Assembly: GCA_025935925.1 (NCBI GenBank)
Contig: JAICUI010000009.1
Location: forward strand, 1-64,000
From: Chloroflexota bacterium
GTDB lineage: Bacteria; Chloroflexota; Limnocylindria; Limnocylindrales; CSP1-4
DNA: 64,000 nt
Direction: 5' to 3'
In this document: in pieces, positions 42,336-49,722 of the stretch
Numbering within the stretch: position 1 is the stretch's first letter
Layout of the letters: each line of letters opens with the position of its first letter
Made by a program: the position numbers and the translations under genes
The notes under the pieces: generated by a model
The model's input: only the letters and a program-made list of their open reading frames with translations
Databases searched by the model: none
Told to the model about the DNA's origin: nothing

Positions 42336-42815
42336 GTGACGATGACGAGCGCCACGAGCGGGCTGCCCCGAGAGCCATCGACCAACGACCCCGACGCGCG
42401 ACCCTCCGCGGTGGACCAGGTGCTGTCACCCCAGCACGAGCTCCAGGGATGGCAGGACGACACGTATCGGACGCTGCACCAGCACCCGGAGCTTGCGAAC
42501 GCCGAGGTCAAGACGTCCGCCGCGGCCGCGGTCGCGCTGCGTGACGCCGGGTACGAGGTGCACGACCATGTCGGACGACGGGAGTCGTCGGCATCCTGCG
42601 CAACGGCGACGGGCCGGTCGTGCTGATGCGCGCCGACATGGACGCGCTCCCGATGCGGGAGGAGACCGGTCTCGCGTACGCCAGCACGGACGAGCAGCCG
42701 GACGCCGACGGTCAGCTCGTGCCCGTGGCGCACGCGTGCGGGCATGACGTGCACGTCGTGAGCCTCATGGGCGCAGCGCGCCTGCTCGCGCAGGGCACCC
42801 GCGATACGTCGTGGT
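42336..42815 (+). pseudogene. M20 family amidohydrolase/peptidase remnant (1-nt frameshift and 3' truncation)
   Basis: Frame 1: LQGWQDDTYRTLHQHPELANAEVKTSAAAAVALRDAGYEVHDHVG; after about 42570 continues one frame over: (T)TGVVGILRNGDGPVVLMRADMDALPMREETGLAYAST...VAHACGHDVHVVSLMGAARLLAQGTRDT, then homology stops. Confidence 0.8.
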
Positions 42816-43233
42816 CTCGATCCTGGCCGGGCTGCTCGTCTTCGCCGGGTTCCACACGGTGCGGCGCGCCCGCGACGCGGTCCTCATGCTCGATGCGCTG
42901 GGCCTGGCCGTGTTCGCCGTCGCGGGATCGTTGAAGGCGCTGGCGTTCAACGCGGACCCACTGGCCGCGATACTCCTCGGCATGCTCACGGCGATTGGCG
43001 GCGGGATGCTGCGCGACCTCCTCGTGGTGGAGGTTCCGACGGTGCTGCGCGCCGAGCTGTACGCAGTCGCCGCGCTCGCCGGGGCCGCGGTCGTGGTCGG
43101 GGGGCAGCTGCTGGGACTGCCAACGGGTCCCGTGGCCGTCGCCGGAGGTGCCCTGTGCTTCGCGCTGCGCGCCATCGCGATCCGACGCGGGTGGCGGCTG
43201 CCGGTCTCGCCGGCCGCCGGTCGCGCCGAATGA
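42803..43233 (+). pseudogene. TRIC/UPF0126-type cation channel remnant (N-terminal half missing)
   Basis: LDALGLAVFAVAGSLKALAFNADPLAAILLGMLTAIGGGMLRDLLVVEVPTVLRAELYAVAALAGAAVVV is the second half of the duplicated UPF0126 fold; the first half is absent. Confidence 0.7.
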
Positions 43234-43288: not shown

Positions 43289-45553
43289 TTGACCGGGATG
43301 GGTGACGCTCGTCGCACGACGCGCCGGGGTGTCATGGCGTCGGCGGCGTCTGCGATCGCGGCGGTGCTGTTCGTCGCGCTGCTCGCAGCATGGGCAGCCG
43401 GTGGCGGATCCGTCAGCCTGCCGTGGGCGCCGACGCTCGGCATCCGCCTCGAGCTGAGCCTCGACGGCTTCGCGATCCTCTATGCGCTGCTGGCGACCGG
43501 GATCGGGTTCCTCGTCTTCGTCTACGGCTCGGGCTACCTCCCGGCGCACCTCGGACACCAGCGGCGGCCCGCCTCCGATGCCCGCCGGTTCTGGCCATGG
43601 ATGGTCGTGTTCATGGCGGCCATGGTCGGCCTCGCGATGGCGCTCGACCTCGTCCTGCTGTTCGTCCTGTTCGACATCACGGCGGTCGCGTCGTATTTCC
43701 TGATCGGCTTCGACCGGCAGCGTGCCGAGGCCCGCGGCGCCGCGTTCATGGCGCTCCTCGTCACCGCCGGGAGCGCGGTGGCGATGCTGCTGGGCGCCGT
43801 GCTCCTGTACTCCGAGTACGGCACGTTCTCGCTGCCCGTGCTGTTCGAACGGGCCCACCCGACGCCCGTCACGACCGCGGCGGCGGCCCTGATCGCCGTC
43901 GCGGCGCTCGCGAAGAGCGCGCAGGTCCCGTTGCACTTCTGGCTCCCCCGCGCGATGGAGGCGCCGACGCCCGTGTCGGCGTATCTCCACTCGGCGGCGA
44001 TGGTCGCGGCCGGCGTCCTGGTCCTCGGCAGGATCCACCCGCTCCTGGCGCTCGATCCGGCGGTCCTCGATGCGCTGCTCTTGATCGGCTTCGCGTCGAT
44101 CGCCGTCGGGGGGCTCATCGCCCTCGCGCAGGATGAGCTGAAACAGGTCCTCGCCCACTCCACGATCTCCCAGTACGGGTACGTCGTCGTCCTGTACGGC
44201 ATCGGCGGCGCGCACGGCGCGGTCGCGGCGGCGCTGTACGTCGTGGCGCATGCGATCGCGAAGAGCGCCCTGTTCATGACCGCCGGAGCCGTCACCGAGG
44301 CGACCGGCGAGTCGCGCCTGTCGCGGCTCGGCGGGCTCGCCCGAGAGCTCCCGGTCGTCGCCGTCGCGAGCGGCATCGCGGCCGCGTCCCTCGCCGCGCT
44401 GCCGCTGACCCTCGGGTTCTTCAAGGACGAGCTGTTCTTCGAGGCCGCGGCGGAGGAGAGCCCGCTGGTCGGCGCGCTGGCCGTCGTCGCGGCCGGGCTG
44501 ACCTTCGCCTATCTCGGGCGGTTCTGGCTCGGCGCGTTCATGGGTCGCCGGCGGACGCCCGCCAGCCGGATCTCGCCGCTGCTCGTGGCGCCGATCGTCG
44601 TGCTCGCCGTCGTGTCGATCATCGGCGGGCTGTTCGTCGAGCCGTTCGCGCGACTCGCGGCCGGGGCCGGCGCGGTGACGGTCGGCGCACCGGTCGACGC
44701 GTCGCCCGGCTACCACCTCGACCTGGGCCTCGCGAACGTGATGGCCGCCGCGGCATGGACGCTCGGGATCGTGATCCTGCTCGCGACGAGCGTGCGCGAG
44801 CCGGTGGCGCGCGCGGTCGCGGCGGCGGGCGACCGGCTGGGTCCGCGGCGCGTGTACGGGCTGGGTCTCCTCGCGTTCGAGCGGCTGTCCGAGGCGGCGC
44901 ACCGGGCCGAGGTCCGGGACCTGCGAACCAGCCTCGCCGCCGTGCTCGTCCCGGGTGCCGTGCTCGCCGCCCTCGGGTTCTTCGCCACGCCCACCGAGGG
45001 CGCGTACGCCGTGGGCCCGATCAGCGCGGCCGACCTGCCGATCGTCGCGCTGCTCGCCCTCGGCGTGGTCGCGGCGTTCACGGCGGCGCGCGACCGCGGC
45101 CGGCTTCGACCCGTGCTCGCGCTGTCCGTGCTCGGCGCCTCGCTCGCCGGCGTCTACGCGGTCATGGGCGCCCCGGACGTCGCGCTCGTCGCCGTCGTCA
45201 TCGAGACGGTGGTCACCCTCGTGTTCGTCACGGTCTTCTCGCAACTGCCCGCGACCGTCATGGGCCGCGCCGGGCCCGCGGCGCCGTCGCCACACCGGAT
45301 CCGGAACGTCGCCGCGGGGATCGTCGCCGGCGTGACGGCCTTCGGCGTCATCTGGACGGCGCTCTCCCGGCCGCCGCTGGGCAGCAGCGATGCGGCGCAG
45401 GACATCCAGCTCACGCCGCTCGCCCACGGTGCCGACGTCGTCACCGTGATCCTCGCGGACTTCCGCGGCCTCGACACGATGGTCGAGATCACGGTCCTCG
45501 CCGTTGCCGTCCTCGGCGTCGCGAGCCTCCTCCGACGGGAGCGCGAGCCGTGA
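43289..45553 (+). CDS. mrpA: Na+/H+ antiporter subunit A (MrpA/MnhA)
   Basis: LSLDGFAILYALLATGIGFLVFVYGSGYL...KSAQVPLHFWLPRAMEAPTPVSAYLHSAAMVAAGVLVLGRIHPLL...AQDELKQVLAHSTISQYGYVVVLYG; MbhD/E-like C-term. Confidence 0.95.
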   Translation: MTGMGDARRTTRRGVMASAASAIAAVLFVALLAAWAAGGGSVSLPWAPTLGIRLELSLDGFAILYALLATGIGFLVFVYGSGYLPAHLGHQRRPASDARRFWPWMVVFMAAMVGLAMALDLVLLFVLFDITAVASYFLIGFDRQRAEARGAAFMALLVTAGSAVAMLLGAVLLYSEYGTFSLPVLFERAHPTPVTTAAAALIAVAALAKSAQVPLHFWLPRAMEAPTPVSAYLHSAAMVAAGVLVLGRIHPLLALDPAVLDALLLIGFASIAVGGLIALAQDELKQVLAHSTISQYGYVVVLYGIGGAHGAVAAALYVVAHAIAKSALFMTAGAVTEATGESRLSRLGGLARELPVVAVASGIAAASLAALPLTLGFFKDELFFEAAAEESPLVGALAVVAAGLTFAYLGRFWLGAFMGRRRTPASRISPLLVAPIVVLAVVSIIGGLFVEPFARLAAGAGAVTVGAPVDASPGYHLDLGLANVMAAAAWTLGIVILLATSVREPVARAVAAAGDRLGPRRVYGLGLLAFERLSEAAHRAEVRDLRTSLAAVLVPGAVLAALGFFATPTEGAYAVGPISAADLPIVALLALGVVAAFTAARDRGRLRPVLALSVLGASLAGVYAVMGAPDVALVAVVIETVVTLVFVTVFSQLPATVMGRAGPAAPSPHRIRNVAAGIVAGVTAFGVIWTALSRPPLGSSDAAQDIQLTPLAHGADVVTVILADFRGLDTMVEITVLAVAVLGVASLLRREREP

Positions 45554-46005
45554 GCCCGGTCATCGGCGTCGTCGCGCCCCGGATCCTCGCGCCTGCCGTC
45601 ATGCTCGCGGCCGGGCTCATCGTCAAGGGCTACTCCGACACCGGCGAAGGATTCAGCGCGGGCGTGATCGTCGCGCTCGCGATCGGGCTGCGGTACATCA
45701 CGCTCGGACGGCGCCGCGCCGACCGGACGCTCGCGGTGGCCCGGCACGCGAACGTCGTGGCGGCCGCGGGGCTGCTCATCGCCCTCGGGTTCGGCTTCCA
45801 GGGCGTGCTGTCCGGTGCGCCACCGTTCACGCACCTGCCGCCACCGGGGAGCCCGGTCATCGGCATCGGGACGCTGGAGCTGACGACGGCCGTCGGTTTC
45901 GACGTCGGCCTGTTCCTGCTCGTGGCCGGGAGCCTGACGGTCCTGATCCGCTACCTGACCGAGCTGCTGCCCGATCCTGCCGACGACCCGGGTGACGAGC
46001 GATGA
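45550..46005 (+). CDS. mrpB: Na+/H+ antiporter subunit B (MrpB)
   Basis: APAVMLAAGLIVKGYSDTGEGFSAGVIVALAIGLRYITLG...ELTTAVGFDVGLFLLVAGSLTVLI; GTG start 45550 overlaps mrpA stop. Confidence 0.92.
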   Translation: MSPVIGVVAPRILAPAVMLAAGLIVKGYSDTGEGFSAGVIVALAIGLRYITLGRRRADRTLAVARHANVVAAAGLLIALGFGFQGVLSGAPPFTHLPPPGSPVIGIGTLELTTAVGFDVGLFLLVAGSLTVLIRYLTELLPDPADDPGDER

Positions 46006-46400
46006 ACCTCGTCTTCGCGCTCGCGGCCGCGATCCTGTTCGGCATCGGCGCGTACCTCGTCCTCCAGCGCGACCTCGTGCGGCTGGTCCTCGGCGTGGCC
46101 GTGATCTCGCAGTCGGCCGTGCTGACGCTGCTCGCGGCCTCGCTCCGGCTGGGCGCCGCGCCGATCTATCCCCTGCCCGAAGGGACGCTCAGCGATCCGC
46201 TGAGCCAGGCGATGGCCCTGACGGCGATCGTCATCGGGATGGCGGTGACGGCCCTCCTGCTCGTCCTCGTCTTCCGCGTCGCGGTCGCGTTCCGGTCCGA
46301 CGAGCTCGAGGAGGTGGCGGGCGAGGAGGTCTCGCTCGACGCACGCCTGGAGGAGACGGAGGGCGAGGCCCACGAGCGCGAGGAGGCGGCGGCGCGATGA
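46002..46400 (+). CDS. mrpC: Na+/H+ antiporter subunit C (MrpC/NuoK-like)
   Basis: LFGIGAYLVLQRDLVRLVLGVAVISQSAVLTLLAASL...DPLSQAMALTAIVIGMAVTALLLVLVFRV. Confidence 0.92.
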   Translation: MNLVFALAAAILFGIGAYLVLQRDLVRLVLGVAVISQSAVLTLLAASLRLGAAPIYPLPEGTLSDPLSQAMALTAIVIGMAVTALLLVLVFRVAVAFRSDELEEVAGEEVSLDARLEETEGEAHEREEAAAR

Positions 46401-47773
46401 CGGCGTTGTCGATCGCGCTCCTGATCCCGTGGGCGGCCGGCGTCGCGCTGCTCGCGGTCGACGGGCGCCGTGCCTGGGTCCCGTGGATCTCGGTGGGAGC
46501 GCTCGCCGCGACGCTGATCACGCTCGGGGCCGTCGCGGCCCAGGTGCTGGCGAGCGGGCCGGTCACGATGACCACCGGAAACTGGCCGGTCGGCGTCGGG
46601 ATCACGCTTCGCGCCGACGCCCTCGGCGTGACGTTCGCGCTGCTGTCGGTCGCGATGCTCACCGCGGCGGTCGTCCACGAGGCGTTCGACGGCGTCGCCG
46701 AGCGCGAGTTTCCTGCGCTCGTCCTGCTCCTCGCCGCGGGTCTCGAGGGCGCGTTCCTGACCGGCGACATCTTCAACTTCTACGTGTTCTTCGAGCTCGC
46801 CCTCGCCGCGTCGTACGTCCTTGCGCTCCACGGCCCGGGGCCGCGGGTCCTGGGCGCCGGTCTCGTGTTCACCGCCGTGAACGTGGTGGGGACGTTCGTG
46901 TTCCTGCTGTCCGTCGCGGGCGTGTACCGCGTGACCGCGACGCTCGACATGGCGCGCATCGGGGAGCGGATGGCGGTCGCCGACCCGAACGCCGCGATCC
47001 TCATCGCCGTCGGGTTCTTCGTGGCGTTCAGCGTGAAGCTCGGCCTGTTCCCGTTCCATTTCTGGCTGCCGACCGTGTACACCGCCGCCCGGCCCGCCGT
47101 GGCCGCGATCCTGAGCGGGAGCGTGGCCAACATCGGTGCGTACGGCCTGCTGCGCTTCGGGGCCGGCCTGCTGCCCCGCGAGCTCGAGCTCGCCGCCGGC
47201 GCGCTGATCGTCCTCGGCGGGGCGTCGATCCTGTACGGCGGGGTGCTCGCGATCTCGCGCCGGAGCGCGGGCGAGATGCTCGCGTATTCCGCCATCGGCC
47301 AGGTCGGCTATGTGCTCGTCGCGATCGGCATCGGCGGGCCCGTGGGATTCGCCGCCGCCATCGCCTACGCGATCGTCAACGCCGCCAACAAGACGATGCT
47401 GTTCCTCACCACGAGCCAGCGCGGCGTCGTCGTCGGCGGGCTGTTCGCGCTCGGCGCCCTCAGCATCGCCGGCATTCCGCCGGCCGCGGGCTTCGTGGGC
47501 AAGCTGGAGGTCTTCCGCGCCGTCGTCGGCGATCCCGTGGTCGCCGGCGTGCTGCTGCTCGGCAGCCTGCTCTCGCTGGTGTACGCGTTCGAGGTGTACC
47601 AGGTGGAGCACTGGCGACCCGCCGCCGATGCCACCGCCGTCCGCGTGTCCTGGCGGGCGTGGGTCGTTCCCGTCGCGCTCGGCGGCGTCATCCTGGCGCT
47701 CGGCGTGTGGCCGGAGCCGCTCCTCGCGCTGTCGGACGCCGCGGCGCGTGTCCTGCCCGGAGCGAACCCGTGA
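46397..47773 (+). CDS. mrpD: Na+/H+ antiporter subunit D (MrpD)
   Basis: LRADALGVTFALLSVAMLTAAVVHEAFDGVAEREFPALVLLLAAGLEGAFLTGDIFNFYVFFELALAASYVLALHG...LGLFPFHFWLPTVYTAARPAVAAILSGSVANIGAYGLLRF. Confidence 0.94.
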   Translation: MTALSIALLIPWAAGVALLAVDGRRAWVPWISVGALAATLITLGAVAAQVLASGPVTMTTGNWPVGVGITLRADALGVTFALLSVAMLTAAVVHEAFDGVAEREFPALVLLLAAGLEGAFLTGDIFNFYVFFELALAASYVLALHGPGPRVLGAGLVFTAVNVVGTFVFLLSVAGVYRVTATLDMARIGERMAVADPNAAILIAVGFFVAFSVKLGLFPFHFWLPTVYTAARPAVAAILSGSVANIGAYGLLRFGAGLLPRELELAAGALIVLGGASILYGGVLAISRRSAGEMLAYSAIGQVGYVLVAIGIGGPVGFAAAIAYAIVNAANKTMLFLTTSQRGVVVGGLFALGALSIAGIPPAAGFVGKLEVFRAVVGDPVVAGVLLLGSLLSLVYAFEVYQVEHWRPAADATAVRVSWRAWVVPVALGGVILALGVWPEPLLALSDAAARVLPGANP

Positions 47774-48249
47774 TCGGCGCCCTGGTGCGGGTCGCGGGCC
47801 TCGCGGCGATCTACCTGCTCGTGCTGACGAGCCTCGAACCGGGTGACATCGCGGTCGGCGTCGTCCTCGCTGTGGCGCTCGTGGTCGCCGGGCGGACGCG
47901 GGGCCCGCATCGAACCGTCGCCGGCTGGGGGACGTGGTCGCTCGCCGTCGCTCGGATGATCCTCGTGACGGGGTGGGAGATCGCCGTGGGCACGGTGCGC
48001 GTCGCCCGGTTCTGCCTGTCCGGCGCCGGGAGTCCCGGCTTCGTCGAGATCCCGCGCGGCGACCGCTCGCGCCACGAGGTCGCGTTGTGGGGCGTGCTCA
48101 CGGGCGAGGCGCCGGACGAGTACCCGGTGATCGTCGACGACGAGCGGCACGTGCTCGTCGTCCACAACGTCGACGCGCGGGATCCCGCCGCGATCCGCGC
48201 CCGCCACGAGGCGGCCCGGACCCGCTACCAGCGCGACCTGGTCCGCTGA
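47770..48249 (+). CDS. mrpE: Na+/H+ antiporter subunit E (MrpE)
   Basis: SLAVARMILVTGWEIAVGTVRVARFCLSGAGSPGFVEIPRGDRSRHEVALWGVLTGEAPDEYPVIVDDERHVLVVHNVDARDP. Confidence 0.88.
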   Translation: MIGALVRVAGLAAIYLLVLTSLEPGDIAVGVVLAVALVVAGRTRGPHRTVAGWGTWSLAVARMILVTGWEIAVGTVRVARFCLSGAGSPGFVEIPRGDRSRHEVALWGVLTGEAPDEYPVIVDDERHVLVVHNVDARDPAAIRARHEAARTRYQRDLVR

Positions 48250-48250
48250 C

Positions 48251-48523
48251 GTGATGCCCGACGTCGTCGTCGCGGTCGCCTTCGTGTGGGCGACGCTGCT
48301 CCTCGTCGCGGGCGGGCTCGTGCTGTTGCGCGCCTCCGACGTCCTGCAGCGCCTGCTCGCGCTCGACGTGCTCGGCACGATCCTGATCCTCGTGCTGACG
48401 ACGCTCTCGTACCTCCTCGGCACGTCGTTCTACATCGATGCCGCGCTGGCGATGGCGCTCCTGTCGTTCTCGGGGACGCTGGTCGCGGTCCGCTACCTCC
48501 GCGGCCGACGGGGGTCCGCGTGA
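48251..48523 (+). CDS. mrpF: Na+/H+ antiporter subunit F (MrpF)
   Basis: VVAVAFVWATLLLVAGGLVLLRASDVLQRLLALDVLGTILILVLTTLSYLLGTSFYIDAALAMALLSFSGTLVAVRYLRGRRG. Confidence 0.9.
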   Translation: MMPDVVVAVAFVWATLLLVAGGLVLLRASDVLQRLLALDVLGTILILVLTTLSYLLGTSFYIDAALAMALLSFSGTLVAVRYLRGRRGSA

Positions 48524-49722
48524 TCGAGACCGTGGTCGGGCTGGTGGGCGGCGCGGCGCTGCTCCTGGGTCTCACGCTGGCCACGATCGGGCTGTACGGG
48601 ATGCTCCGGAGACCCGCGATCTTCGACCAGCTGCACGCGGCGGGGCTGATCAGCGGGTCCGGCGTGATCCTCGTGCTCCTCGCGTCGCTCGCGACGGGCA
48701 GCGCCGAGATCGCGACGAGCGGCCTGCTCGTCGTCGCGTTCGTCCTGATCACGTCGTCGCTGTCCACGCACGCCATCGCGCTCGCCGCCTGGCGGGATGC
48801 GGCCTCCGCGCGCCCGGGCGGGTCATGGGCGGGGCCGGCCGTCGTGCCGCCGGCCGCGATGCGCGTGGTCCTCGCCCACGACGGGTCGGATGGCGCCGCG
48901 GTCGCGACGTCGTTCGCGGCCTCCGTGCCGTGGACCGAGGGGTCGTCGATCCGCCTGGTCCTCGTGACCGAGGGCGGCCTCCGGCCGTTCCCGAGCGAGG
49001 CGGCGTCCGCGCGGCACGAGCCGGCGTCCGCCGGTCTTCGCGAGGTCATCGATGCGGCGGCCACGAGCCTCCGGCGCCCGGGTCTGGCGATCGACGAAGT
49101 GACGGTGCAGGGCGACGCCGCGGCCGCGATCGCGACCGAGGCGACGGCATTCGGCGCGGACCTCGTGGTGATCGGCAGCCGCGGCCTCGGGCCGGTGCGG
49201 TCGATCCTGCTCGGTTCCATCGCGCCCGCCGTCATCGACGCCGCGCCATGCCCGGTTCTCGTCGCCCGCGTGCCGGTCGCGCGCTCGGCGCTCGTGGCCG
49301 TGGACGCCGCGGGCACGGGCGACGCGGCGATCGATGCCGTCGCGCGATGGCCGATGTTCCACGGCGTGCGAATCGTCGTCGTCAATGTCGCGACCGCAGC
49401 GGCGGCCGAGGACGGCGCGGACGGGGACGTCGCGGAGGCGGCCGCCACGCGACTGCGAGCAGCGGGCCGCTCGGCGGTGTCGATCGTGCGGACGGGCGAC
49501 GCCGCGACCCGCATCCTCGAGGTCGCTCGAGCCGAAGCGGCGGACGTCATCGTCCTCGGGTCGCGCGGGCAGACCGGCGTCCGCCGTGCGTTCCTCGGGA
49601 GCGTCGGCCGCAGCGTGGTGTCCTCGGCGGACGTGTCGGTCCTCGTCGTCGAGGGACGCGCGTCACGCGGCAGACCGGCGCCGGAACCACACGAAAACGC
49701 CCGAAGGAACCTCGATCACTAG
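48520..49722 (+). CDS. mrpG: Na+/H+ antiporter subunit G (MrpG) fused to two universal stress protein (UspA) domains
   Basis: N-term VIETVVGLVGGAALLLGLTLATIGLYGMLRRPAIFDQLHAAGLISGSGVILVLLAS (MrpG); Usp1 MRVVLAHDGSDGAAV...VVIGSRGLGPVRSILLGSIAPAVIDAAPCPVLVARV; Usp2 ...VIVLGSRGQTGVRRAFLGSVGRSVVSSADVSVLVVEG; continuous frame, no SD before the Usp part. Confidence 0.9.
   Translation: MIETVVGLVGGAALLLGLTLATIGLYGMLRRPAIFDQLHAAGLISGSGVILVLLASLATGSAEIATSGLLVVAFVLITSSLSTHAIALAAWRDAASARPGGSWAGPAVVPPAAMRVVLAHDGSDGAAVATSFAASVPWTEGSSIRLVLVTEGGLRPFPSEAASARHEPASAGLREVIDAAATSLRRPGLAIDEVTVQGDAAAAIATEATAFGADLVVIGSRGLGPVRSILLGSIAPAVIDAAPCPVLVARVPVARSALVAVDAAGTGDAAIDAVARWPMFHGVRIVVVNVATAAAAEDGADGDVAEAAATRLRAAGRSAVSIVRTGDAATRILEVARAEAADVIVLGSRGQTGVRRAFLGSVGRSVVSSADVSVLVVEGRASRGRPAPEPHENARRNLDH

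Follow-up and report, generated by a model that had tools for sequence, protein, structure and literature searches.

Mrp antiporters are related to complex I. Within the Mrp complex, the third transmembrane helix (TM3) of MrpG contacts the cytoplasmic, ferredoxin-like domain of MrpE at a proline, and one proposal has Na+ enter at the MrpE/MrpG interface (PMC7419157, PMC9568556); the TM3 proline of MrpG has been reported to be both invariant and essential (PMC7419157). In known cases, universal stress (Usp) proteins with a G-2x-G-9x-G-S motif are ATP-binding, and one tandem protein has been observed with an ATP in each domain (PMC4686210, PMC12159084), while the KdpD Usp of S. aureus is without the ATP motif (PMC4686210). 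TrkA_C/RCK_C and Usp domains are known types of c-di-AMP receptor in K+ and Na+ transport (PMC5575661, PMC4686210). In haloarchaea, a composite of MnhE and Usp has been published as family 1906 (PMC5992828). In the literature that we searched, no report was found of MrpG fused to Usp or TrkA_C, nor of direct ligand control of MrpG.

The window analysed here is a stretch of 64,000 nucleotides on a 75-kb contig of the draft genome (3.3 Mb, 120 contigs, 87.3% complete) of an uncultured Chloroflexota-like bacterium, probably of Limnocylindria type, and it carries a gene in which MrpG is followed by two Usp domains (Table 1). The 400-aa frame is open throughout, with no internal stops, as an earlier note on this DNA had described, and its GTG start overlaps the mrpF stop. 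The MrpG profile PF03334 matches residues 14-90 at 43 bits against a cut-off of 23.4 (E 5e-11), the same part matches solved chains of Mrp and related complexes (6z16_G, 7qru_G and 7d3u_G), and three transmembrane helices are seen as hydropathy segments and as low-confidence model helices. The single-sequence structure model reached a pLDDT of 48, too low for use in a fold search. The rest of the protein matches PF00582 (Usp) in two stretches, at 135 bits against a cut-off of 24 (E 3e-39), and also matches the solved structures 1wjg, 3loq, 2jax, 3cis and 1mjh. Each of the two domains contains an exact G-2x-G-9x-G-S motif, so the claim of two complete nucleotide motifs was borne out; two such motifs occurred by chance in 4 of 5000 shuffles.

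Table 1. Features of the mrpG-usp-usp locus, and loci of other MrpG fusions in the phylum.
Feature	Position or locus	Strand	Basis or remark
M20 peptidase remnant joined to the last part of a PF03458 (Gly_transporter) protein	42336-43233		scar of a rearrangement, before mrpA
mrpA, including MbhD/MbhE-type C-terminal part	43289..45553	+	Pfam; 66% identical to G095 orthologue
mrpB	45550..46005	+	PF04039
mrpC	46002..46400	+	PF00420
mrpD	46397..47773	+	PF00361; 6z16_D match
mrpE	47770..48249	+	PF01899
mrpF	48251..48523	+	PF04066; LALD aspartate kept
mrpG-usp-usp fusion gene, 400 aa	48520..49722	+	continuous frame; PF03334 and two PF00582
MrpG part, three hydrophobic helices, residues 1-93	48520..48798	+	Pfam, hydropathy, solved MrpG chains
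Ser80 codon, at A. flavithermus MrpG Pro86 position (TM3)	48757..48759	+	alignment to 6z16_G
Linker, about 20 residues, G/A/P-rich	48799..48858	+	translation
ATG (M114), where stand-alone tandem Usp relatives natively start	48859..48861	+	sequence comparison
Usp domain 1	48859..49275	+	Pfam residues 115-250; 1wjg match
Usp1 G-2x-G-9x-G-S motif, GSRGLGPVRSILLGS	49174..49218	+	residues 219-233, exact
Usp domain 2	49285..49653	+	second Pfam stretch; 3loq, 1mjh matches
Usp2 G-2x-G-9x-G-S motif, GSRGQTGVRRAFLGS	49558..49602	+	residues 347-361, exact
MrpG-single Usp loci	L149/L174, L163, L164/L173		three genomes, Usp without ATP motif
MrpG-TrkA_C loci	L042, L148, L150-L153, L161, L165-L171		

Pfam identifies all seven subunits, in the order A, B, C, D, E, F, G, and confirms that the fusion gene is the last of a complete operon. 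MrpE is encoded by a separate gene, and it is MrpG that carries the Usp domains. In alignments to the solved chains, the key residues of MrpA, MrpD and MrpF are mostly retained; at one conserved site of MrpA an Asp replaces Glu, and the same replacement is present in the MrpA of G095, a member of another genus of the family. The membrane part had been described as a full MrpG with three transmembrane helices, and its PF03334 score and helices agree with that description, but the protein is divergent. It falls below the curated cut-off of the NCBIfam equivalog TIGR01300 (CPA3_mnhG_phaG), scoring 37.8 against 63.1 bits. Among 77 MrpG sequences compared, the TM3 proline column has P in 73 and the aspartate of R-x-P-D is D in 74; the window protein has S80 and A33 at these positions. 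The proline is also missing from three other sequences among the 77. MrpG proteins without it are found at L036 (TSATAAH) and L062 (TNATGAH). The TM3 proline is therefore common in MrpG rather than strictly defining, and the window protein's membership rests on its domain score and its operon. With a residue reported as essential replaced, the window MrpG may work differently or poorly.

Similarity to MrpG stops near residue 93, and the linker leads to a methionine, M114. In the same family, tandem Usp proteins that stand alone begin with MRILLATDGS and similar sequences at exactly the position of M114, so the gene looks like an mrpG that lost its stop codon and now reads into a tandem-usp gene. 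Two separate genes could have been merged by a missed stop, an indel or a chimeric join in the assembly, and the draft state of the genome, the single assembly and the damaged genes upstream of mrpA are in keeping with such an error. We regard it as unlikely. Past the MrpG core, the other two frames run to a first stop at 174 nt in one and 996 nt in the other, so a single indel would not yield a short, natural MrpG end; the joint itself is open in the same frame, and coding composition is consistent on either side of it. The earlier note had also argued for a fusion from the lack of a Shine-Dalgarno sequence before the Usp part. No Shine-Dalgarno-like sequence was found upstream of ATG 48859, but the argument is weak because such sequences are also weak before several other genes of the operon.

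The locus has been rearranged, as the broken genes upstream of mrpA show. The M20 peptidase remnant has a frame break near 42580 and is cut off near 42810, and the remnant of the PF03458 membrane protein is truncated and matches one domain copy only. At the corresponding place upstream of mrpA, the G095 locus has different genes. This fits a fusion that arose by rearrangement, and a chimeric assembly is also possible.

The lineage of the parts argues against a chimeric join, since the MrpG part, the Usp part and the flanking ATPase all come from one lineage. Within the family, orthologues of the downstream P-type ATPase share about 70-81% identity with it, and the contig is thus not foreign. 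A convincing MrpG was found in 2 of 107 genomes of the family, namely the window genome and G095. A further MrpG match, in G027 (23.6 bits), was dropped, as mrp subunits were absent nearby. G095 has the same gene order, with every subunit 57-66% identical to that of the window; this level of identity is kept across A to G, and the operon therefore does not appear to be decaying as a whole. The G095 MrpG is 63% identical to the window MrpG, ends normally and has no Usp after it. The earlier note had set separate genes in all relatives against its own reading, and the locus comes close to that situation, as its sole close orthologue has a tail-less MrpG.

The best matches of the Usp tail are at 44-47% identity. 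In a tree, the tail falls among tandem Usp proteins from its own family and class, on a long branch and with its sister unresolved, and the stand-alone tandem Usp relatives in the family also have the ATP motif in both domains. At least two tandem Usp genes stand alone in the window genome itself (G000:C4:71435-72328 and G000:C23:12852-13772). No Usp gene was found beside the P-type ATPase in relatives, and so there is no sign that the tail arrived with that neighbour. The simplest history would be that the mrp operon is held by few members of the family and that mrpG was later fused to a tandem-usp gene.

Fusions to MrpG were then sought across the phylum, where most listed frames long enough for an extra domain were read. 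MrpG was found in 149 of 396 genomes of one class, in 88 of 158 of another and in 5 of 177 of the window's class. In three genomes (G543, G570 and G594), from two genera of one distant family in a different class, MrpG runs in frame into a single Usp domain; the two of these three proteins that were scanned score 56-58 bits for Usp (cut-off 24), and the genes stand after genes for mrpA, C, D and F. The window MrpG is only 28-32% identical to these Usp-bearing proteins, as against 63% to the tail-less MrpG of G095, and the two kinds of MrpG-Usp fusion most likely arose independently. Fusions of MrpG to TrkA_C are present in 14 genomes from six families of the phylum. The MrpG proteins of G740 and G805 (L156, L176) are extended at the C-terminus by about 130 residues, with no Pfam match to this part in G805, the one scanned. 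No second case of a tandem, ATP-binding Usp on MrpG was found in the data searched, in which fusions outside the phylum could be missed. A contig scan of other genomes gave a Usp match in one planctomycete and nothing else; viral contigs gave no match, and plasmids gave Usp matches only, over a third of the query. The search for the combined architecture thus turned up single-Usp cases in three genomes, and the tandem form in one assembly only.

That like fusions are present in other genomes also argues against an assembly error. The frame is unbroken, the contig fits the lineage, and three genomes of another family have MrpG-Usp fusions of independent origin; one fused gene rather than two, as originally proposed, is the best reading. 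Domains of sensor type have been attached repeatedly at the C-terminus of MrpG, the tandem Usp being a further variant, and these separate attachments suggest that this end is a favoured attachment point for regulation of the pump.

We suggest that mrpG, as the last gene of the operon, lost its stop codon and came to be read through a short linker into a formerly stand-alone tandem Usp gene. The cytosolic C-terminus of MrpG would then carry two Usp domains, probably paired within the chain and probably binding adenine nucleotide. A domain at this end would sit at the cytosolic mouth of the MrpE/MrpG cation path. By virtue of the contact between TM3 and MrpE near the proposed cation entry, a nucleotide-dependent change in the tail would most likely adjust antiport, or the stability of the complex, to the energy or stress state of the cell. 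Adenine nucleotides could plausibly regulate the antiporter, and we take an adjustment of antiport in response to them to be the most likely role of the tail. Taken as a whole, from stop loss to nucleotide-dependent control, we consider this explanation about evenly balanced between being right and wrong. Against it stand the tail-less closest orthologue, S80 and A33, and the broken upstream genes; the tandem version is known from a single assembly, and an undetected stop at the joint is possible.

A real fusion could also have a tail that is irrelevant to antiport. After a recent, chance loss of the stop codon, the Usp part would work as before, either tethered to the membrane or also made separately from ATG 48859. 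The occurrence of the tandem form in one genome, the native start methionine kept at the joint, the G095 orthologue without a tail, the missing proline and the rearranged surroundings all speak for such an accident, and we take it as a serious, if rather doubtful, account. However, tails on MrpG have been maintained elsewhere, with Usp in two genera and with TrkA_C more widely, and a separate Usp product would have to be started without a Shine-Dalgarno-like sequence.

A third account keeps the tail as a sensor but makes c-di-AMP its ligand, as for the Usp of KdpD and the RCK_C of K+ transporters. A diadenylate cyclase gene is present in the genome (PF02457; L183, G000:C68:80051-80398), both receptor types are known from cation transport, and in this phylum Usp and TrkA_C have each been fused to MrpG. 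We nonetheless think it very unlikely, for the SXS-X20-FTAXY motif of c-di-AMP-binding KdpD Usp was not found in the tail, and the intact ATP motif points instead to ATP or AMP.

One could also propose, with some doubt, that the C-terminal end of MrpG serves Mrp antiporters generally as a regulatory port, where separate lineages have installed Usp (single or tandem) and TrkA_C, letting cytosolic nucleotides act directly to gate the MrpE/MrpG cation entry, the window gene being the tandem, ATP-binding version. Repeated attachment of sensor-type domains to one small subunit, beside a proposed cation entry, would give an indication of where and how such complexes can be gated, and MrpG-sensor fusions would be natural constructs for testing gating.

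The earlier note did not recognise the architecture as a described one, and this stands for the tandem version, but not for the wider type, given the published MnhE-Usp and the MrpG-Usp and MrpG-TrkA_C proteins elsewhere in the phylum. Like the window protein, the haloarchaeal MnhE-Usp joins an Mrp/Mnh antiporter subunit to Usp; it differs in being archaeal, in carrying a divergent Usp and in doing so on subunit E rather than G. The MrpG-Usp proteins of the distant family share the MrpG core and a C-terminal Usp within an mrp gene set, but have a single Usp without the ATP motif. In the MrpG-TrkA_C proteins, a ligand-type soluble domain is likewise found at the MrpG C-terminus, with TrkA_C replacing Usp. 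The family's stand-alone tandem proteins, like 3loq, 2jax and 3cis, have two Usp domains but no membrane part, and the family members share the paired ATP motifs with the window tail. KdpD Usp and the RCK_C of CpaA are also ligand-binding domains that control cation transport, although in other proteins, and the c-di-AMP motif of KdpD sets it apart from the window tail. The window gene is thus a real and unusual fusion, of which a related form is known and whose kind recurs on MrpG.
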